A stretch of 64,000 bases of DNA, from assembly GCF_009807095.1 (NCBI RefSeq), contig NZ_WUCC01000001.1, positions 372,001 to 436,000 on the forward strand, written 5' to 3'. The position numbers were made by a program, and so were the translations under genes. The notes under the pieces are model-generated. The model had not been told where the DNA came from. It saw only the letters and a list, made by a program, of their open reading frames with translations, and made no database searches. Within the stretch, counting starts at the first letter, position 1, and every line of letters begins with the position of its first letter. Source of the stretch: Rathayibacter sp. VKM Ac-2754 (GTDB lineage Bacteria > Actinomycetota > Actinomycetes > Actinomycetales > Microbacteriaceae). This document shows positions 3,804-57,362 of this stretch, in pieces.

Positions 3804-3888
3804 CGTCGGCCTCCAAGGGGTGCGCGCGCCGCCGTGCGTGCACCCGGCGCGGTGAGGTGGACCGGGAGAGGGGGTGCCGGCGATCCAT

Positions 3889-3894
3889 TATCGT
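3889..3894 (+). promoter_or_regulatory. Putative -10 element of the histidine kinase gene
   Basis: TATCGT in a locally AT-richer stretch predicts a start of transcription near 3901 and a 5' leader of about 35 bases. That leader contains GGAG six bases before the GTG. The call is inferred from motif and spacing only. Confidence 0.4.
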
Positions 3895-3935
3895 GGCGGA
3901 GCGCCGACCCCCGGCGCCCGCCCCCGGAGTACGCC

Positions 3936-5102
3936 GTGTCCCGTCCCCGCACCCCCGTGCACACCACCCCGTGGCTCGACCGGCGCTCCGCCGGCCCGAT
4001 CCTCCTGGCCGCGAACCTCGCGGTCGGACTCGCGATCTTCGCGCTCGTCGCCCCTCGACTGCCGCTGTGGAATCTGCTGCTGACCCTCGCGATCGGGCTC
4101 GGCGCGATCCTCCCGCTCGGCTGGCAGCGACGACGCCCGCGGACCGCCGGGGTCGCCGCCTGCCTCGGCGCCGCGCTCACCCCGATCGCGACGCCCGCCC
4201 TCTGGACCGCGCTCGTGCTCATCGGGCGACGCCTGCCGGCGCGGACGGCATGGCGCTTCGTCGCGGCGGGTGCGCTCGCCGATGCGTTCCTCCTCGGGCT
4301 CTTCATCGTCCGGTGGGCACGCCCCGAGATCCTCGGCGCGTCGATCCTCGTCGGGCTGTTCTCGGTGGCCGTCACCGTGACGATCGGCGTGCTCGGCATA
4401 CTGACCGGCGCGAAGCGGCGCAGCGAGCGCGAGGCCGATCGTCGGCTGATCAGCGCGCTCGACCGGGAGAGGACGGCGTTGGCGCGGTCGCTCGACGCCG
4501 AGCGCGAGCGCATCGCCGAGGAGATCCACGACTCCCTCGGCCACTCGCTGACGCTGCTGAGCCTTCACTCGGCGGCGCTGCGCGACCTCGACGGACTGTC
4601 GCCGGAGGAGGTCAGGATCCTCACCGAGTCGATCGACCGGCAGACCCGCACGGCGATCGACTCGCTGACGGCCACCCTCCGGGCGGCTCCGGTCGCGGGC
4701 TCGACCGAGGCTGCGGCCGATCTCGACCGGCTGTTCTCGGACGTGACCTCGACCGGCCGCGAACTCGATGTGCGGATCGACGGCGACCCCGGCGCACTCG
4801 ACACCGCGGCGACCGCGGCGCTCGTGCGCTTCTGCCGAGAGGGCCTGACCAACGCGCTCAAGCACGCCGCCGCCGGACCGCTCGTCGTCGCCGTCAGGGT
4901 CGACGACGACGGCTCGGTCGTCGCCGCGGTCACCTCACCGGGAGGGGAGGCGACGGCCGGCGCTGCGTCGACGGCACGGGGACTCCGCGGTCTCCGGGAG
5001 TCCACCGCGACGCTCGGAGGCGAGGTGGTGCTGACACCCGGTCGCGACCAGACGGTGCTGAGCCTGCGCGTGCCGGCACCCGGCGCGCGCGACTCGGCGT
5101 GA
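3936..5102 (+). CDS. Sensor histidine kinase, NarX/DesK-like (HisKA_3)
   Basis: Membrane sensor kinase divergent from the response regulator. I start at GTG 3936 because GGAG lies six bases upstream and the upstream frame is not protein-like, giving 388 residues. Four to six membrane segments fill residues about 20-155. The HisKA_3 dimerisation domain follows, with the phospho-acceptor His at about 198 in EEIHDSLGHSLTLL. The ATPase domain has an N-box in FCREGLTNALKHAA and a glycine-rich box near GLRGLRESTATLGG. There is no obvious extracellular sensor domain, so it probably senses within the membrane or through a partner. This architecture regularly pairs with LuxR-type regulators such as the neighbouring gene. 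Confidence 0.88.
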   Translation: MSRPRTPVHTTPWLDRRSAGPILLAANLAVGLAIFALVAPRLPLWNLLLTLAIGLGAILPLGWQRRRPRTAGVAACLGAALTPIATPALWTALVLIGRRLPARTAWRFVAAGALADAFLLGLFIVRWARPEILGASILVGLFSVAVTVTIGVLGILTGAKRRSEREADRRLISALDRERTALARSLDAERERIAEEIHDSLGHSLTLLSLHSAALRDLDGLSPEEVRILTESIDRQTRTAIDSLTATLRAAPVAGSTEAAADLDRLFSDVTSTGRELDVRIDGDPGALDTAATAALVRFCREGLTNALKHAAAGPLVVAVRVDDDGSVVAAVTSPGGEATAGAASTARGLRGLRESTATLGGEVVLTPGRDQTVLSLRVPAPGARDSA

Positions 5103-49591: not shown

Positions 49592-49638
49592 TCTCAGGGA
49601 GCGGTGCCGCCCGGTACCCGCAGTTCACCCGGGCGCCC

Positions 49639-49644
49639 TACGGT
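49639..49644 (+). promoter_or_regulatory. -10 element of the UMF1 transporter gene (leaderless)
   Basis: TACGGT ends six bases before ATG 49651. Confidence 0.6.
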
Positions 49645-49650
49645 GATCGC

Positions 49651-51003
49651 ATGACAGACCGCACCCGTCGCTGGCCCGTCGTCGCCTGGGCTCTCTGGGA
49701 CTGGGGCGGCTCGGCCTTCAACGCGGTCGTCACCACCTTCGTCTTCACGGTCTACCTGACCAGCGACGGGCTCTTCGGCACCTCGACCGGCGTCTCCGCG
49801 GCACTCGGCTGGTCGCTCGCGGGAGCCGGACTGGTCGTCGCGCTGATCGCGCCGATCACCGGGCGACGGGCCGATCTCGGCGGGCGGCGGAGGCTGTGGC
49901 TCGGCATCCACTCGGCCGTGGTCGTCGTCTGCATCCTGCTGATGTTCTTCGTGCGCCCCGACCCCGCGTTCCTCTGGCTCGGCCTGCTGCTGCTCGCCGT
50001 CGGCACCGTCTTCTTCGAGTTCGCGAGCGTCAACTACAACGCCATGCTGACGCAGGTCTCGACGCGCGCGAGCATCGGCCGCGTCTCGGGCTTCGGCTGG
50101 GGCATGGGGTACGTGGGCGGCATCGTCCTGCTCCTCATCGTCTACTTCGGCTTCATCTCGCCCGAGGTGGGGCTCTTCGGCGTCACCGGCGACGACGGCC
50201 TCGACGTGCGGGTCTCGATCCTGCTCGCGGGCGTGTGGTTCGCCGTCTTCGCCCTGCCGGTGCTCCTGGCGGTTCCCGAGACGCCGGCCACCGCCTCCGG
50301 AGCCAGCAGGGTCGGCATCATCGCCTCCTATCGCGCGCTCTTCCGGCAGATCCGGGCGCTCTGGCACGAGAGCCCCAGCACGGTCGCCTTCCTCATCGCC
50401 AGCGCGGTGTTCCGCGACGGACTGACCGGAGTGTTCACCTTCGGCGGAGTCCTCGCCCAGGGCACCTTCGGCTTCAGCCCGGGCGAGGTGATCCTCTTCG
50501 CGATCGCGGCGAACCTGGTGGCCGGAGTGGCGACCATCTCGGTCGGTGCGCTCGACGACCGCGTGGGGCCCAAGGCCGTGATCGTCGCCTCCCTGGTGGG
50601 CCTGGTGATCTGCGGGACCGCGGTGTTCGTGCTGCACGACGGCGGCCAGACGGTGTTCTGGATCTTCGGACTCCTGCTCTGCCTGTTCGTCGGCCCCGCC
50701 CAGTCGGCGAGCCGCAGCTATCTGGCCCGCCTGATCCCCGAGGGGCGGGAGGGCGAGATCTTCGGCCTCTACGCGACCACCGGACGCGCCGCGTCGTTCC
50801 TGGCCCCCGCGGCCTTCGCGGCGTTCGTGTCGATCGCCGCCGTCGCCTCCGGTGGCGACGAGGCGAACGTGCAGTACTGGGGCATCCTCGGCCTGGTCCT
50901 GGTGCTCGCCGTCGGGCTCGTGCTGCTGCTCCCGGTCAAGCGCCCGCCGACCGCCTCCGCGACTCCCGCGCCGACCGAGCGCGACGCCTCGGCCCTCCCC
51001 TAG
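49651..51003 (+). CDS. MFS transporter, UMF1/Atg22-like family
   Basis: A 450-residue transporter with 12 predicted membrane segments. The opening W-A-L-W-D-W-G-G-S-A-F-N-A-V-V-T-T-F-V-F is the strongly conserved first-helix motif of the UMF1 family, whose eukaryotic member Atg22 exports amino acids from vacuoles. A charged loop G-R-R-A-D-L-G-G-R-R-R matches MFS motif A. Substrate in bacteria is unknown. It diverges from dnaK, with HAIR 2 in between, so heat-shock co-control is possible but unproven. Confidence 0.88.
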   Translation: MTDRTRRWPVVAWALWDWGGSAFNAVVTTFVFTVYLTSDGLFGTSTGVSAALGWSLAGAGLVVALIAPITGRRADLGGRRRLWLGIHSAVVVVCILLMFFVRPDPAFLWLGLLLLAVGTVFFEFASVNYNAMLTQVSTRASIGRVSGFGWGMGYVGGIVLLLIVYFGFISPEVGLFGVTGDDGLDVRVSILLAGVWFAVFALPVLLAVPETPATASGASRVGIIASYRALFRQIRALWHESPSTVAFLIASAVFRDGLTGVFTFGGVLAQGTFGFSPGEVILFAIAANLVAGVATISVGALDDRVGPKAVIVASLVGLVICGTAVFVLHDGGQTVFWIFGLLLCLFVGPAQSASRSYLARLIPEGREGEIFGLYATTGRAASFLAPAAFAAFVSIAAVASGGDEANVQYWGILGLVLVLAVGLVLLLPVKRPPTASATPAPTERDASALP

Positions 51004-51066
51004 AGTGACCGAGCCGCTCGCCGCGGCGACAGCACGATCGGCCCCGGCCGGATGGAGGAGCACGCG

Positions 51067-51381
51067 ATGGCGCGACAGGACACGCACGAGCGCGACGGGG
51101 CACCCCGGGGCCCGGAGCGGCACACCCGGACCTCCGAGCCCGCCGTCGACGCGCCGTCGACGAGCCCCTCGTCCGAGTGGCCGACCGCGCCCGCCGCGGG
51201 GCCCACGAGCGTCCCCGACCGCCCCGCGTCGATCCGCGTCAAGAAGAAGCGCAAGTCCTCGGGAGCCGCGCGTGCCCGGCGCCTGGCGAAGCGCGTCGGC
51301 TACGCCGCCCTCGTCCTCGCCCTGCTCGCGGGCCTCGCCGTCGTCATCGTCCTGATCGTCGCGCCGCACCACCTCTTCTGA
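51067..51381 (+). CDS. Small protein with a C-terminal membrane anchor
   Basis: A 104-residue protein: a long hydrophilic N-terminus rich in Pro, Ser and Thr (about 5-60), a basic block V-K-K-K-R-K-S-S-G-A-A-R-A-R-R-L-A-K-R, then one hydrophobic helix (about 82-99). The basic side stays in the cytoplasm by the positive-inside rule, so this looks like a tail-anchored protein. ATG 51067 has GGAGG at ideal spacing; the ATG at 51052 lies inside that Shine-Dalgarno region. No family is recognised. Confidence 0.6.
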   Translation: MARQDTHERDGAPRGPERHTRTSEPAVDAPSTSPSSEWPTAPAAGPTSVPDRPASIRVKKKRKSSGAARARRLAKRVGYAALVLALLAGLAVVIVLIVAPHHLF

Positions 51382-51395
51382 GGGGAGGCGGGCGT

Positions 51396-51492
51396 GTCGA
51401 GATCCACGTCCATCAGAAGACCCGGTCAGGCGCCTCATCTCCTGAAGCTGGTGGGTCTCGATACGCCCCTGCGGGGCTACTCGACCAGCATG
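51396..51492. repeat. Palindromic intergenic element, copy 2 (shorter)
   Basis: The left part (GTCGAGATCCACGTCCATCA, 51396-51415) and right part (GGGTCTCGATACGCCCCTGC onward, to 51492) repeat the arms of the element at 40.6-40.7 kb. The right arm is nearly identical; the left arm lacks its outer half. It sits after the small membrane protein gene and before the convergent crtEb. Confidence 0.75.
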
Positions 51493-51530
51493 GGGGAAGT
51501 CGGCGCCGGAGCCCACCCCCGCCTGCCGGG

Positions 51531-52394
51531 TCAGGTGGCGAGCCAGAAGACGATCAGCAGCAGGGTGACCAGGAAGCCGGTCAGGAAGTTGAGCGCGAGG
51601 AAGCGCTTCCAGCCGGCGTTCGCTCGCTCGGCCTCCGCGTCGGTGAGCGAGCGGTAGGGCCAGACGCTCACTGCGTACGGCACCGCGAGGATCGCGGCGA
51701 GGGTGCCCGGCCACGGCAGCAGGAGCAGGAGCAGCCCGCTCGCGACGTACGCGGCGATCGCGAAGCGGCTGGTCGCCCTCGCCCCGATGACGGTGGCGAT
51801 GGAGGCGATACCGCCCGCCCGGTCCGCGAGGATGTCCTGCACCGCGCCGAAGGCGTGGCTCGCGATCCCCCAGAGGAAGAACGCGACGAGCAGCGCCACG
51901 AGCGGCGGGTTCACGACCGTGCCCGCCAGCGCGATGCCGTACACGGCGGGGCTGACGAAGTGCGTGGCCGAGGTCAGCGAGTCGACGAACGGGCGCTCCT
52001 TGAACCGCAGCCCTGGAGCACTGTAGGCGATCACCGCGAAGACGCTGATCGCGAGCACCAGCCACGACACCGGCGAGCCGAGCAGGACCAGGGCCACGAG
52101 GAACGGCACGTTCGTCACGACCGCGGCGATCAGCGTCGCGCGGTGCTCGCCGCGGTCGAGGACCGCTCCCTCCACTCCGCCCTTGCGAGGATTGCGGAGG
52201 TCGGACTCGTAGTCGAAGACGTCGTTGATGCCGTACATCGCGAGATTGTACGGGATGAGGAAGTAGAGCGTGCCGAGCACGAAGGCGAGGTCGATCTCGC
52301 GCGTGGTCAGCAGGTAGGCGGCCGCGAACGGGTACGCCGTGTTGACCCAGCTCAGCGGGCGGCTCGAGACGAACAGCGCGCGCAGCCGCTTCAC
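51531..52394 (-). CDS. crtEb: Lycopene elongase / UbiA-type prenyltransferase
   Basis: Adds two C5 prenyl units to lycopene on the way to C50 carotenoids, in the membrane. The 287-residue protein has eight to nine membrane helices and the two aspartate-rich prenyl-diphosphate motifs: N-D-V-F-D-Y-E-S-D (about 57-65) and D-I-L-A-D-R-A-G-G near 182-190. The start GTG 52394 overlaps the crtYf stop. Context (last gene after crtYe and crtYf) fixes it as the elongase rather than a quinone prenyltransferase. Confidence 0.93.
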   Translation of the reverse strand: MKRLRALFVSSRPLSWVNTAYPFAAAYLLTTREIDLAFVLGTLYFLIPYNLAMYGINDVFDYESDLRNPRKGGVEGAVLDRGEHRATLIAAVVTNVPFLVALVLLGSPVSWLVLAISVFAVIAYSAPGLRFKERPFVDSLTSATHFVSPAVYGIALAGTVVNPPLVALLVAFFLWGIASHAFGAVQDILADRAGGIASIATVIGARATSRFAIAAYVASGLLLLLLPWPGTLAAILAVPYAVSVWPYRSLTDAEAERANAGWKRFLALNFLTGFLVTLLLIVFWLAT

Positions 52395-52693
52395 GAGGCG
52401 CTCCGTCGACGCGCGGGGAGGAGGGTCCAGAGCGCGGGCAGCAGGAGCGCGGCGGCGATCGCGTAGGCGAAGTCCTCGATGGGGGCCACTCCGATCCGGA
52501 TGCCCGAGATCAGCTCGTCGTCGTAGGCGACCAGGAGTCCCACCCCGATCATCACGTTGTCGAACACGGCGGTCATCACCAGCAGCACGGCGAGCGTGCC
52601 GAGCACGGCGGCGGGGCGGAGGCGCCGCCACGCGATCGCGACGACCACCAGCACGACCGCGAGGAAGACGGCGTTGAGGAGGAGGTAGGTCAT
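52391..52693 (-). CDS. crtYf: C50 carotenoid cyclase subunit (lycopene cyclase domain)
   Basis: Second half of a heterodimeric membrane cyclase that forms the rings of C50 carotenoids. The 100-residue protein has three membrane helices and the family motif P-I-E-D-F-A-Y-A, the E-D/F pair expected in the active site, near 70-77. Its ATG overlaps the crtYe stop and its stop overlaps the crtEb GTG, so all three are translationally coupled. It is assigned Yf by its second position, as in Corynebacterium. Confidence 0.88.
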   Translation of the reverse strand: MTYLLLNAVFLAVVLVVVAIAWRRLRPAAVLGTLAVLLVMTAVFDNVMIGVGLLVAYDDELISGIRIGVAPIEDFAYAIAAALLLPALWTLLPARRRSAS

Positions 52694-53019
52694 GCGCGCA
52701 CCTCCGGTCGCCGGGCGGCGCGGTTCGAGAGGAACCCGTGCACGTCCATGCTCAGGTAGCAGAGCAGGGTGAGGAAGAGGACCTCCTCGATGGGCAGCTC
52801 CGGCGCGAGCTGGATGCCGGTCATGTAGGGCGTCTCGCCGCGGAAGAACACGCCGAGACCGATGCCGACGAGATCCCAGATCAGGAAGAAGACGACGCCG
52901 ACCGGCAGCACGATCGCCGCGCGCCGCGCGTCGGCCCAGAAGAACAGGCGCAGGCGCCTGTCGAGCACGACCATCCCGGTGATCGAGACGGCGAGCGCCA
53001 GCAGGTAGAGGAACCCCAC
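52690..53019 (-). CDS. crtYe: C50 carotenoid cyclase subunit (lycopene cyclase domain)
   Basis: First half of the heterodimeric cyclase. The 109-residue protein has three membrane helices, V-F-F-L-I-W-D-L-V-G-I near 43-53, and the P-I-E-E-V-L-F motif near 75-81, equivalent to the P-I-E-D-F of its partner. Both subunits together resemble the two-repeat CrtY of other bacteria and the fungal CarRP cyclase domain. The GTG start is three bases after the crtB-crtI stop. Ring type (beta, epsilon or gamma) cannot be read from sequence. Confidence 0.88.
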   Translation of the reverse strand: MGFLYLLALAVSITGMVVLDRRLRLFFWADARRAAIVLPVGVVFFLIWDLVGIGLGVFFRGETPYMTGIQLAPELPIEEVLFLTLLCYLSMDVHGFLSNRAARRPEVRA

Positions 53020-53022
53020 CGG

Positions 53023-55578
53023 CTACTCCCCCGCGACCGCGACCGGGACGCGGGACGCCTCCGTCACGTCGGGCGCGACGGGCGCCGCCGGGGCGTCGCG
53101 CACCGGCAGCGGCTCGGTCGAGACGTCGCCGCGCACCCGCTTGAGCATCACCTCGGCGCTGATCAGGCACATCGGCAGGCCGATGCCCGGGATCGTCGAG
53201 CTTCCCGCGAAGAGCAGGCCGTCGACGTGCTTGCTGATGTTGCCGGCGCGGAAGAAGGCGCTCTGCGAGAGCACGTGCGACGGGCCGAGCATCGAGCCGC
53301 GCCACGCGCCGAGGTCGCTCTCGAAATCCGCCGGGCCGATGGTCCGGCGGACGACGATGCGCTCGGCGAGGTCGGTCGCTCCGGTCCAGGTCGCGATCTG
53401 CTCGATCACGGCGTCGGCGATGGCCTCGACGCGCGCATCGCCCGCGCCGTCGACTCCGCCGTGCCCGATCGAGGTGTCGGCCGGGATCGGCACGAGCACG
53501 AACAGGTTCTCGTGCCCCTCCGGAGCGACCGAGGGGTCGGTCGCGCTCGGGCGGCAGACGTAGATCGAGGCCGGGTCCGGCACCGAGGGGTTCTCGCCGA
53601 AGATGCGGCCGAAGTTGTCGCGCCAGTCCTGCGTGAAGAGCAGGGTGTGGTGCTCGAGCTGGGGCAGCTCCCCGCGCACACCGAGCAGCACGAGGACGGC
53701 GCTCGGGCCGGGCTCGCGGTTCTCCCAGTACGACGGCGGGTAGGTGCGCAGCTCGTCGGGCAGCAGCGACTGCTCGGTGGTGAAGAGGTCGGAGGCGTTC
53801 ACGACGAGGTCGGCGGCGATCTGCCCGGTCCCCTCCGGCCCCTCGAACTCGACGCCGACGACCTCGGCGTCCCAGCGGCTGCCGCGCGGGGCGCGGGCGG
53901 TGAGGATCCGCGTGGCCGGCGACGAGGTGCGGATGCGCACCCCCGCCTCCTCGGCGACGTCCCGCACGGCGTCGATCAGCGTCGTGATGCCGCCCATCGG
54001 GTAGAGCACGCCGTCGGCCAGGTCGAGGTGGCTCATCAGGTGGTACATGCTCGGCGCACTGAACGGCGAGGAGCCGAGGAACACGGCCGGGTAGCCGAGG
54101 ATCTGGCGGAGCCGGTTGTCGGTGACCGTCTTGCCGGCGAGGGTGTCGAGCGGAGTGAGGAGCAGGCGCCCGAGCGTGCTCGTGCGACTCAGCACGTCGC
54201 GGCGCAGCAGCGGCAGGAACGACGAGAAGCTCGTGTAGAGGAAGCGGCGCTTCGCGACCTCGTAGGTGTCCCGGGCCGAGTCGAGGTAGGAGCGCAGGCG
54301 CTCGCCCGCGCCGGGCTCGATGCGCTCGAACAGGGCGAGGTTCGACTCGAGGTCGGCGAGCACGTCGATCGGCTCCTCGATCCCCTCGCTGTAGACCCGG
54401 TAGCCCGGGTCGAGCGTGACGAGGTCGAGGCGCTCCGCGGCGCTCGAGCCCATCAGCTGGAAGAAGTGGTCGAACACCTCGGGCATCAGGTACCACGAGG
54501 GTCCGGTGTCGAAGCGGAAGCCGTCATTCTCCCATGAGCCGGCGCGACCGCCGACGACGTCCTTCGCCTCGAGCAGGGTGACGTCGAAGCCGTCGCGGGC
54601 GAGCAGAGCCGCGGAGGCGAGACCGCCGATCCCGCCGCCGATCACGACCGCGCGGTGCGATCCGGACTGCGAGCGAGCGGCACGGGCGGGTCCCTGACCG
54701 AGTCGCGGTCCGAGAGTCGAGACCGCCGCGCGGGCGGCGAGCGCGGCCTTGGTCGCGGTCGGCACGCTGACGCGGGCGCGCAGGAGCTCCTCGGCGGGCG
54801 TCTCGCGGATGCGGTCCGCCAGCGCCTCGAACAGCGAGTGCGCGAGACGCACGGCCCGGCGCGACGAGCGGGGCAGCTCGGGCACGATCGCGGCGGCCGC
54901 CTCGAGGTCGGCGTCGAGGTCGGCGAGGAGGATCGCCTTGTCCTGCTCGGAGAAGTCGCGCGGGTCGACGCCCGGGAAGTAGCTGCGTCCGAGCCCGTCG
55001 ACATCCGCCGCCAGATCGCGGAGGAAGTTGACCTTCTGGAACGCCGAGCCCAGGCGGCGCGCGCCGGCGACGAGACGCTCGCGCTGCGCGGGGGAGACGA
55101 GACCCGCATCCGGAGCCGCGAGGAACACGTGCAGGCACATCAGCCCGACGACCTCGGCCGAGCCGTAGACGTAGGCCTCGAACGACTCGGGAGTGTGCTC
55201 GGTCTCGCGGAGGTCGGCGCGCATCGAGGCGAAGAACGGCGCCGTGAGCTCGGTGCCGAAACCGGTCGCCCGCGCGGTCCTCGCGAAGGCGTGGATGACG
55301 AGGTTGGCGCTGTAGCCGGTCTCGAGAGCCCGCTCGGTCTCGGCCTCGAAGGCGTCGAGCGCCTCCTCGACGGCGGCGCGGTCGAGCCGCGCCTCCTCGG
55401 CGACGCCGTCGACGATCTCGTCGGCGACGCGGACCAGCGCGTAGACGTCCTCGACCCGCTCGCGGACACCCGGGCCGAGCAGACGCGTGGCCAGCCCGAA
55501 CGACGTCGAGTAGCGGCGGATCACCTGCGCCGACGCCTCGTGGGCGACGCGGTCGTACAGTTCGCTCTGCCGGCTCAT
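53023..55578 (-). CDS. crtBI: Phytoene synthase-phytoene desaturase fusion (CrtB-CrtI)
   Basis: One open frame of 851 residues. Residues 1-about 300 are phytoene synthase: R-R-Y-S-T-S-F near 21-27, the first Asp motif D-E-I-V-D (53-57) and the second N-F-L-R-D-L-A-A-D near 184-192, joining two geranylgeranyl diphosphates. A 20-30 residue Ala/Gly/Arg linker follows. From about 309 comes phytoene desaturase with the FAD loop VVIGGGIGGLASAALLARDG, G-G-R-A-G-S-W and P-S-W-Y-L-M-P-E, ending with G-S-S-T-I-P-G-I-G-L-P-M near 795. These genes are normally separate; here no stop separates them. The only in-frame candidate starts near the junction are GTGs at about 272 and within A-V-V-I-G, neither with a Shine-Dalgarno sequence. 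It therefore probably makes one bifunctional protein. Confidence 0.9.
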   Translation of the reverse strand: MSRQSELYDRVAHEASAQVIRRYSTSFGLATRLLGPGVRERVEDVYALVRVADEIVDGVAEEARLDRAAVEEALDAFEAETERALETGYSANLVIHAFARTARATGFGTELTAPFFASMRADLRETEHTPESFEAYVYGSAEVVGLMCLHVFLAAPDAGLVSPAQRERLVAGARRLGSAFQKVNFLRDLAADVDGLGRSYFPGVDPRDFSEQDKAILLADLDADLEAAAAIVPELPRSSRRAVRLAHSLFEALADRIRETPAEELLRARVSVPTATKAALAARAAVSTLGPRLGQGPARAARSQSGSHRAVVIGGGIGGLASAALLARDGFDVTLLEAKDVVGGRAGSWENDGFRFDTGPSWYLMPEVFDHFFQLMGSSAAERLDLVTLDPGYRVYSEGIEEPIDVLADLESNLALFERIEPGAGERLRSYLDSARDTYEVAKRRFLYTSFSSFLPLLRRDVLSRTSTLGRLLLTPLDTLAGKTVTDNRLRQILGYPAVFLGSSPFSAPSMYHLMSHLDLADGVLYPMGGITTLIDAVRDVAEEAGVRIRTSSPATRILTARAPRGSRWDAEVVGVEFEGPEGTGQIAADLVVNASDLFTTEQSLLPDELRTYPPSYWENREPGPSAVLVLLGVRGELPQLEHHTLLFTQDWRDNFGRIFGENPSVPDPASIYVCRPSATDPSVAPEGHENLFVLVPIPADTSIGHGGVDGAGDARVEAIADAVIEQIATWTGATDLAERIVVRRTIGPADFESDLGAWRGSMLGPSHVLSQSAFFRAGNISKHVDGLLFAGSSTIPGIGLPMCLISAEVMLKRVRGDVSTEPLPVRDAPAAPVAPDVTEASRVPVAVAGE

Positions 55579-55666: not shown

Positions 55667-56737
55667 TCATCGGGTGCGTCCCACGACGCTCGCGACCAGT
55701 GGGCGGACCTCGGTGCGGAACGCCTCCGGGACAGCGGGCACCGTGAGCGCCTGCCAGGCCCGGGTCGCGAAGTCGTCGGCGAGGTTCTCGGCGTAGCTGC
55801 GGGCCCCGCACTCCACGAGGATCCGGCGCACGCGCTCGGCCGTCTCGCCGCTCAGATGCTCGTCGCCGATCAGGTCCTCGATGTCGGGCCAGCAGTCGGT
55901 CCCCGCGGCGTGGGCGATCAGGACGGTGCGCTTGCCCTCGCGGAGGTCGCCGAGCGTGGTCTTGCCCGTCTGCACCTCCTCGCCGAACACCCCGAGCAGG
56001 TCGTCGACGATCTGGTAGGCGATGCCGATGCAGCGGCCGAACTCGCCCAGCGCCGCGACGACCTCGTCGTCGGCCCCCGCGAGGATCGCGCCGGCCTGCA
56101 GCGGCGCCTCGAACGAGTACACCGCGGTCTTCAGGCGCTCCATCTCGAGCACCTCGTCGACGGTGGGCATGCCGGGCATCAGCGAGAAGTCGACGTCGGC
56201 GAGCTCCCCCGCGGCTGAGGCGAAGACGGCCTCGTCGAGCAGGGTGAGGAGCCGGGCGCGCACGGCGTCGTCGGCTCCGACGCCCTCGACGAGACGGTGG
56301 GCGCCGGTGAGCGCCAGGTCGCCCGCGATGACGGCGACCGAGGTGCCGCGGTGCTCGGCGATCGGGATGGAGAGCCCGGCGGTGGTGGCCTCGTCGCGGT
56401 AGCTCCCCGAGACGTTCGGGCCGCCGCGGCGGACGAAGTCGCGATCGATCACGTCGTCGTGCACGATCAGGGCCGTGTGGAGGAGCTCGAACGCGGCGCC
56501 GAGGTGGGCCGCCGCCTCAGGGTCGGTGCCGCCGAGGGCCTCGTAGGCCGAGATGACCATCAGGGGGCGGAAGCGCTTGCCGCCGCGGGTGTTGGCCTCG
56601 AGGGTCTGCCAGAGCGTGAGGTAGCGGGGGCCGAGGCGGCCCGCTCTGGCGCGCGCCAGCGAGAAGAAGCGATCGAGCACGGCGTCGACGTGCTCCTGCC
56701 GTCGCCGGGAGAGAACTACGGAGTCTCGCGTATCCAC
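55667..56737 (-). CDS. crtE: Geranylgeranyl diphosphate synthase (polyprenyl synthetase)
   Basis: Makes C20 geranylgeranyl diphosphate for phytoene synthesis. The 356-residue protein shows G-G-K-R-F-R-P-L near 52-59, the first Asp-rich motif H-D-D-V-I-D-R-D near 93-100 and the second D-D-L-L-G near 244-248. The absence of bulky residues directly before the first motif agrees with a C20 product, but length cannot be proven by eye. It starts the carotenoid operon from a leaderless GTG. The gap to crtBI is 88 bases. Confidence 0.92.
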   Translation of the reverse strand: MDTRDSVVLSRRRQEHVDAVLDRFFSLARARAGRLGPRYLTLWQTLEANTRGGKRFRPLMVISAYEALGGTDPEAAAHLGAAFELLHTALIVHDDVIDRDFVRRGGPNVSGSYRDEATTAGLSIPIAEHRGTSVAVIAGDLALTGAHRLVEGVGADDAVRARLLTLLDEAVFASAAGELADVDFSLMPGMPTVDEVLEMERLKTAVYSFEAPLQAGAILAGADDEVVAALGEFGRCIGIAYQIVDDLLGVFGEEVQTGKTTLGDLREGKRTVLIAHAAGTDCWPDIEDLIGDEHLSGETAERVRRILVECGARSYAENLADDFATRAWQALTVPAVPEAFRTEVRPLVASVVGRTR

Positions 56738-56749: not shown

Positions 56750-56831
56750 ACAAACTCGCTTCTCTAGCAATAAGCCGGCTGAGTTACCGGAGCGTGCTTG
56801 ACTTACCGTCATGACTTCGGGAGGAATCGCG

Positions 56832-57362
56832 GTGCTGACCGACGAGATCGAGCAGGTGGTGCTGCTCGACGAGACGGGCGGCGCGATCGGCGTCGCCGAC
56901 AAGGCGACGGTCCACGACACCGCCACTCCCCTGCACCTCGCCTTCTCGTGCCACGTCTTCGCTCCGGACGGCGCGCTGCTCGTCACGCGGCGGGCGCTCG
57001 AGAAGCGCACCTGGCCGGGCGTCTGGACCAACTCGTTCTGCGGCCACCCCGCTCCCGGCGAGCGGATCGAGGACGCGGTGGTGCGCCGGGCCGAGCGCGA
57101 GCTCGGCGCGCGCCTCGAGTCGCTCGAGGTCGCCCTGCCCGACTTCCGCTACCGCGCGGTCGACGCCTCCGGAGTCGTCGAGAACGAGATCTGCCCCGTC
57201 TACACCGCGACGCTCTCGAGCCGCGAGGCGCTGAACCCGCAGCCCGACGAGGTCATGGACTACGAGTGGGTCGACCCGGAGGCGACGCTCGCCGCGGTCC
57301 GCGCGGCCCCGTGGGCGTTCTCCCCCTGGCTGGTCCTGCAGCTCCCCCGCCTGCTCGGCTGA
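56832..57362 (+). CDS. idi: Isopentenyl-diphosphate delta-isomerase (type I)
   Basis: Interconverts IPP and DMAPP, feeding the carotenoid pathway. The 176-residue protein has the NUDIX-derived core: H-L-A-F-S-C-H-V-F near 34-42, T-W-P-G-V-W-T-N-S-F-C-G-H-P (catalytic Cys, about 64-77), R-R-A-E-R-E-L-G and N-E-I-C-P-V-Y (catalytic Glu). I choose GTG 56832 because GGGAGGA lies eight bases upstream; ATG 56811 would add seven residues and overlaps the predicted transcription start. It diverges from crtE, so supply and use of C5 units can be co-regulated. Confidence 0.93.
   Translation: MLTDEIEQVVLLDETGGAIGVADKATVHDTATPLHLAFSCHVFAPDGALLVTRRALEKRTWPGVWTNSFCGHPAPGERIEDAVVRRAERELGARLESLEVALPDFRYRAVDASGVVENEICPVYTATLSSREALNPQPDEVMDYEWVDPEATLAAVRAAPWAFSPWLVLQLPRLLG

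Follow-up and report, generated by a model that had tools for sequence, protein, structure and literature searches.

A CrtB-CrtI gene fusion in the C50-type carotenoid operon of Rathayibacter and its counterparts in Micrococcales

We analyzed a stretch of 64,000 nt from the genome of Rathayibacter sp. VKM Ac-2754 (hereafter the window; contig NZ_WUCC01000001.1, positions 372,001 to 436,000), in which the genes for phytoene synthase (crtB) and phytoene desaturase (crtI) are joined in a single open reading frame (ORF), crtBI. The two enzymes act in succession on the way to a yellow pigment in these plant-associated bacteria. The gene occupies positions 53023..55578 of the minus strand, stop included, with an ATG at 55578, a TAG at 53025-53023 and no internal stop codon, and its 851-aa product is very probably a single bifunctional chain of about 90 kDa. 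A first-pass annotation had proposed that CrtB and CrtI are naturally fused here within a C50-type carotenoid operon, and this proposal is supported by the domains, the predicted structure, the operon context and the conservation of the gene.

One frame in the window and across the genus

The crtBI frame was recognized from the ORF itself, from Pfam and NCBIfam matches and from its conservation in the genus. Residues 1-286 (54721..55578, minus strand) form a phytoene synthase-type CrtB domain, as indicated by Pfam (SQS_PSY, residues 20-274) and by the structure prediction. Residues 308-828 (53095..54657, minus strand) form the CrtI domain, which is matched by Pfam and by the NCBIfam model crtI_fam (residues 310-828; 553.5 bits against a cut-off of 238.1) and carries the GxGxxG motif that binds flavin adenine dinucleotide (FAD) in the CrtI family (GGGIGG at residue 314). 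Between them lies a linker predicted to be disordered, at about residues 287-307 (54658..54720, minus strand), without a start codon preceded by a good Shine-Dalgarno (SD) sequence. The low-confidence segment of the predicted structure spans about 20 residues (286-306; 54723-54661), so that the junction initially placed near 54654-54690 was about right.

The length of the frame is by itself no proof of a gene, because chance long open frames are common in GC-rich DNA; an 823-aa ORF is present at 49594-52065 in the same GC-rich window. We accepted the fusion as real, and with it the 851-codon frame claimed by the first-pass annotation, because both halves show homology in one frame, the frame is conserved in the genus and the ratios of nonsynonymous to synonymous polymorphism (pN/pS) are low. 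The gene is present in all 15 sampled Rathayibacter genomes, and the two complete domains share one open frame in 13 of them. Mean pN/mean pS across these 13 genomes is 0.22 for CrtB and 0.27 for CrtI, which indicates that both halves are maintained by purifying selection; the values are 0.41 for the linker and 0.61 for the C-terminal tail. Among the best 80 of 361 relatives, the closest named one is Rathayibacter sp. Leaf185 (95% identity).

These data also bear on whether two separate genes were joined by mistake in sequencing or assembly. The two remaining assemblies of the genus (G005 and G014) do have contig ends at the linker, as such an error might lead one to expect, but 13 of the 15 genomes show the same open frame and 11 of those 13 have the same spacing between the CrtB start and CrtI residue 306. 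The base error at the junction that the first-pass annotation had named as its possible undoing is thereby refuted, and we give an artifactual join practically no credence. In the draft G014, the CrtI part is made up of two matches that overlap each other close to the end of the contig, suggesting a frame change there.

One protein or two, and the identity of the CrtB half

Several observations weigh against reading crtBI as a phytoene synthase-desaturase made as a single chain. The predicted model has a predicted template modelling score of 0.64 and comes without inter-domain error, and the packing of the domains cannot be judged from it. The CrtB half scores below the cut-offs of the CrtB equivalog models (38/480 bits for NF042419, 50/550 for NF045686 and 26.4/500 for NF045921); among the NCBIfam models HpnD fits it best (80.6 bits, under the cut-off of 278.6), and the closest structures are those of C30 CrtM-type synthases. 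The start codon of crtBI has a modest SD energy (-4.5), while a GTG deep in CrtI (residue 547) reaches -11.6, and separate proteins could arise through a weak internal start or through proteolysis of the linker.

Two in-frame starts are found near the linker, a GTG at residue 272 (SD energy +1.3) and a GTG at residue 312 (-3.1), compared with -8.6, -10.8 and -5.8 for the downstream genes crtYe, crtYf and crtEb. Elsewhere in the frame, ATG or GTG codons at residues 147, 232, 406, 547 and 815 have energies of -6.6 to -11.6, none of them near the CrtI start. The first-pass statement that no good internal start exists holds at the linker; away from it, these five codons score -6 or better. The modest values of crtEb and crtBI, together with these strong in-frame codons, make SD energy a guide only.

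If two proteins were still made, free CrtI would come from an internal start (the GTG at 312 or one further up) or from cleavage of the linker. This is made conceivable by the predicted disorder of the linker, which would render it cleavable, by the GTG at residue 232 (SD energy -6.6) upstream of the linker and by the internal SD sequence and ATG that are kept in Clavibacter relatives. However, the GTG at residue 312 has a weak SD sequence and is absent from 3 of the 13 Rathayibacter genomes, and a start there would cut the first strand of the FAD domain (residues 309-313). Among 830 windows compared in 11 of the 13 genomes, the junction ranks 545th for codon conservation, an average value, and the alignment of the 13 genomes contains no invariant run of at least 15 nt at the junction. 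On these grounds we rejected the use of a start codon at the Rathayibacter linker and regard the production of two proteins by either route as improbable. As no start with a good SD sequence is found at the linker, the Rathayibacter fusion looks obligate, which is the best reading of the sequence.

Phytoene synthases carry two aspartate-rich DxxxD motifs. Both are present in the CrtB half (DEIVD at residue 53 and DLAAD at residue 188), although the loose DxxxD pattern matches six further places in the fusion protein, one of them within CrtB. The CrtB half also has the SQS_PSY domain and fold, and it is the only SQS_PSY gene product of the 3.97-Mb source genome, where the fusion has only short, weak matches elsewhere. 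Its designation as a phytoene synthase is based on the operon, on these motifs and on its resemblance to crtB of C50 clusters. The presence of crtE in the operon suggests geranylgeranyl diphosphate (GGPP, C20) rather than farnesyl diphosphate (FPP, C15) as the substrate, and crtE, crtI and the remaining operon genes point to phytoene, formed from GGPP, as the likely product.

Distribution and origins of the fusion

The first-pass annotation had suggested counting single-frame and split versions among relatives. In our species collection, the classified loci (80 named ones, the best of 361 relatives) comprised 12 fused loci against 66 split ones, and two more showed only CrtI because their contigs end there. 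The 12 fused loci belong to five Rathayibacter, five Clavibacter and two Microbacteriaceae bacteria (VKM Ac-2854 and -2855), the last two matching the two most divergent genomes of the same genus. In 73 of 83 split loci (the 66 named plus 17 unnamed, some of the same strains), the crtB stop and the crtI start overlap by 4 nt. One of the loci examined, on contig00036 of Vibrio cholerae strain 35D, has a crtB-crtI junction nearly identical to that of Arthrobacter agilis and is probably a contaminant contig.

Matches were found in 338 of 398 genomes of the family, 263 of 396 of the order and 108 of 396 of the phylum, the best of which were listed. From the family and order we classified the listed matches with a frame of at least about 780 codons, plus all 24 listed genomes of g96, a genus of another family in the same order. 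The 98 further regions picked in this way, for a crtI frame long enough for a fusion or for membership of g96, brought the total to 107 with nine loci already given; 103 were split and four were fused (from three genomes). The 4-nt overlap was present in 87 of those 103 split loci, and one more region (G683) was likewise split. Among the matches listed for the phylum sample, we found no full-length one-frame match except that of the window itself, in a search that could miss a fusion matched in two pieces.

Clavibacter presents a different arrangement. The two genes are fused in frame in 16 of 18 genomes and split with an ATGA overlap in the other two (G228 and G406). All 18 carry an identical 21-nt sequence directly before CrtI that ends in ATG, with AGGAG six bases ahead. 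This ATG sits within a 79-nt run identical in all 18 genomes, in an alignment where 1946 of 2565 columns are invariant and the next-longest invariant run is 32 nt. The six codons upstream of the ATG are fully conserved, as are 77 of 839 six-codon windows, so that the block stands out by the length of the run and not by its six-codon conservation. The stretch preceding the block has nine different lengths in the 16 fused genomes, all multiples of three, and measures 143 and 158 nt in the two split ones. The crtI start thus seems to be kept while the fusion frame is mostly kept as well, and these genomes likely encode two products, the CrtB-CrtI fusion and free CrtI. We also considered a trifunctional CrtE-CrtB-CrtI protein in Clavibacter, where frames without a stop reach about 1350 codons, but discarded it: crtE is encoded by a separate ORF (3877-4947 of locus L060), and the additional part of the long frame crosses it in another reading frame (checked in L060; the same kind of frame occurs in L063).

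A third fused lineage was found in g96: of the 24 genomes with a listed match, three (G619, G483 and G764) have one frame, and at least one more sampled genome (G439) has no match. The fusion protein of G619 starts with ATG and has 875 aa, and no start with a good SD sequence was found in the linkers of the three fusions. These form one starred group in the tree, and their nearest relative (G639) is split. Because the fused group is nested beside split sisters, we rejected, for this lineage, the view that all fusions go back to one event, and the g96 fusion is, on these sequence trees, an independent origin.

We built three quick trees (CrtB, CrtI and concatenated), using one set of 91 rows per tree, listed in part, and another of 56 rows (8 of the 13 Rathayibacter, 8 of the 18 Clavibacter and 10 of the 24 g96). 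Rathayibacter and Clavibacter each form one clade, and none of the three trees places the two as sisters, though the branches separating them are unstarred. It is possible, if somewhat doubtful, that the two genera share one ancestral fusion rather than two gains: an approximately unbiased (AU) test does not reject their joint clade (p 0.313; 16 of 56 rows) and every other classified locus of the family is split. Beyond their separate placement in all three trees, their linkers are unlike in length and sequence, and Clavibacter retains the crtI start, with two of its 18 genomes split, all of which speaks against a shared fusion.

Most likely, the fusion descends from a crtB-crtI pair with translational coupling, in which a change abolished the 4-nt overlap and brought both genes into one frame; the start of crtI and its ribosome-binding site would then have decayed. 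Living relatives may keep the stages of this route: the coupled pair (ATGA), the fused frame with an internal ribosome-binding site and both products (Clavibacter), and the obligate fusion (Rathayibacter). We judge the chances about even that the route is so preserved and that lineages of Micrococcales followed it two or three times. Two or three gains would point to selection in favor of a physical link between the synthesis of phytoene and its desaturation, and the repeated gain and the mostly kept Clavibacter frame suggest a benefit. This could be a fixed 1:1 dose, a shared membrane site and perhaps channelling; phytoene could plausibly be handed straight to the desaturase at the membrane.

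Operon context, known systems and significance

The fused pair sits in an otherwise translationally coupled operon on the minus strand, as indicated by 4-nt overlaps in the segment 51531-53019. Upstream lies crtE (55667..56737; Pfam, NCBIfam), encoding a polyprenyl (geranylgeranyl) diphosphate synthase, whose true start may be the GTG at 56680, which has a better SD sequence. Downstream, the GTG start of crtYe (52690..53019; TIGR03462, no Pfam match), for a lycopene cyclase-domain subunit, lies 3 nt past the crtBI stop. It is followed by crtYf (52391..52693; Pfam), for a second lycopene cyclase subunit, which overlaps crtYe by 4 nt (ATGA), and by crtEb (51531..52394; Pfam, NCBIfam), for a UbiA-type lycopene elongase, which overlaps crtYf by 4 nt. 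The gene idi (56811..57362, plus strand; Pfam, NCBIfam), for an isopentenyl-diphosphate isomerase, is divergent from the operon. The locus thus holds the full set of a C50 carotenoid operon: crtE, crtB, crtI, two cyclase-subunit genes and a UbiA-type elongase gene. Near the idi/crt cluster of one Clavibacter locus (L060, 1601-3193), we observed a patatin-like gene and one for what may be a MarR-like regulator, both identified by eye.

By homology and operon context, the N-terminal all-helical domain would convert two GGPP molecules into phytoene and the C-terminal FAD domain would desaturate phytoene, presumably in four steps, to lycopene, which CrtEb and CrtYe/CrtYf would then convert into a C50 carotenoid.

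The first-pass annotation knew of no well-described bacterial CrtB-CrtI enzyme. This view has to be revised in part, as two such proteins are already in print, but the available portions of the two papers (PMC5552033, PMC10284914) contain no biochemistry for either. For Rathayibacter toxicus, crtBI (AYW78_09710) was listed in 2017 as encoding a bifunctional phytoene synthase/oxidoreductase, in a text where the words 'fusion' and 'fused' are absent (PMC5552033). It belongs to the same genus and lies with crtE, crtYe, crtYf, crtEb and an adjacent isomerase gene; unlike the window gene, it is known from annotation only, and we liken the two by description (PMC5552033). A CrtIB fusion of reverse order was described in Verrucomicrobiota (Ca. 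Pelagisphaera) in 2023: it likewise joins the two enzymes naturally in a bacterium, but CrtI comes first (by name), the operon is one for rhodopsin/retinal and the phylum is unrelated (PMC10284914). The thraustochytrid CrtIBY likewise unites phytoene synthase and desaturase in one polypeptide, and its knockout abolishes pigment, but it is eukaryotic, has the order I-B-Y and includes the cyclase (PMC10016063). The actinobacterial C50 clusters of Corynebacterium glutamicum and Marisediminicola share homologous enzymes, neighbors and pathway, whereas their crtB and crtI are two genes (PMC6669644); in the split loci of our survey, such pairs mostly overlap by 4 nt. The available portion of PMC2889829 contains no mention of a CrtB-CrtI fusion.

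The Rathayibacter fusion is therefore not the first of its kind; our survey adds the 4-nt overlaps of split loci, the internal start of Clavibacter and the independent g96 fusion. In the open-licence literature searched, we found no report of the distribution of the fusion, of the conserved Clavibacter start or of recurrent origin.

Fusions of carotenoid enzymes have been engineered deliberately to raise yields. The natural synthase-first order found in several actinobacteria offers a ready part for such engineering, and the fused frame of Clavibacter, with its apparently intact internal start, represents a testable intermediate between coupled operon genes and one protein.
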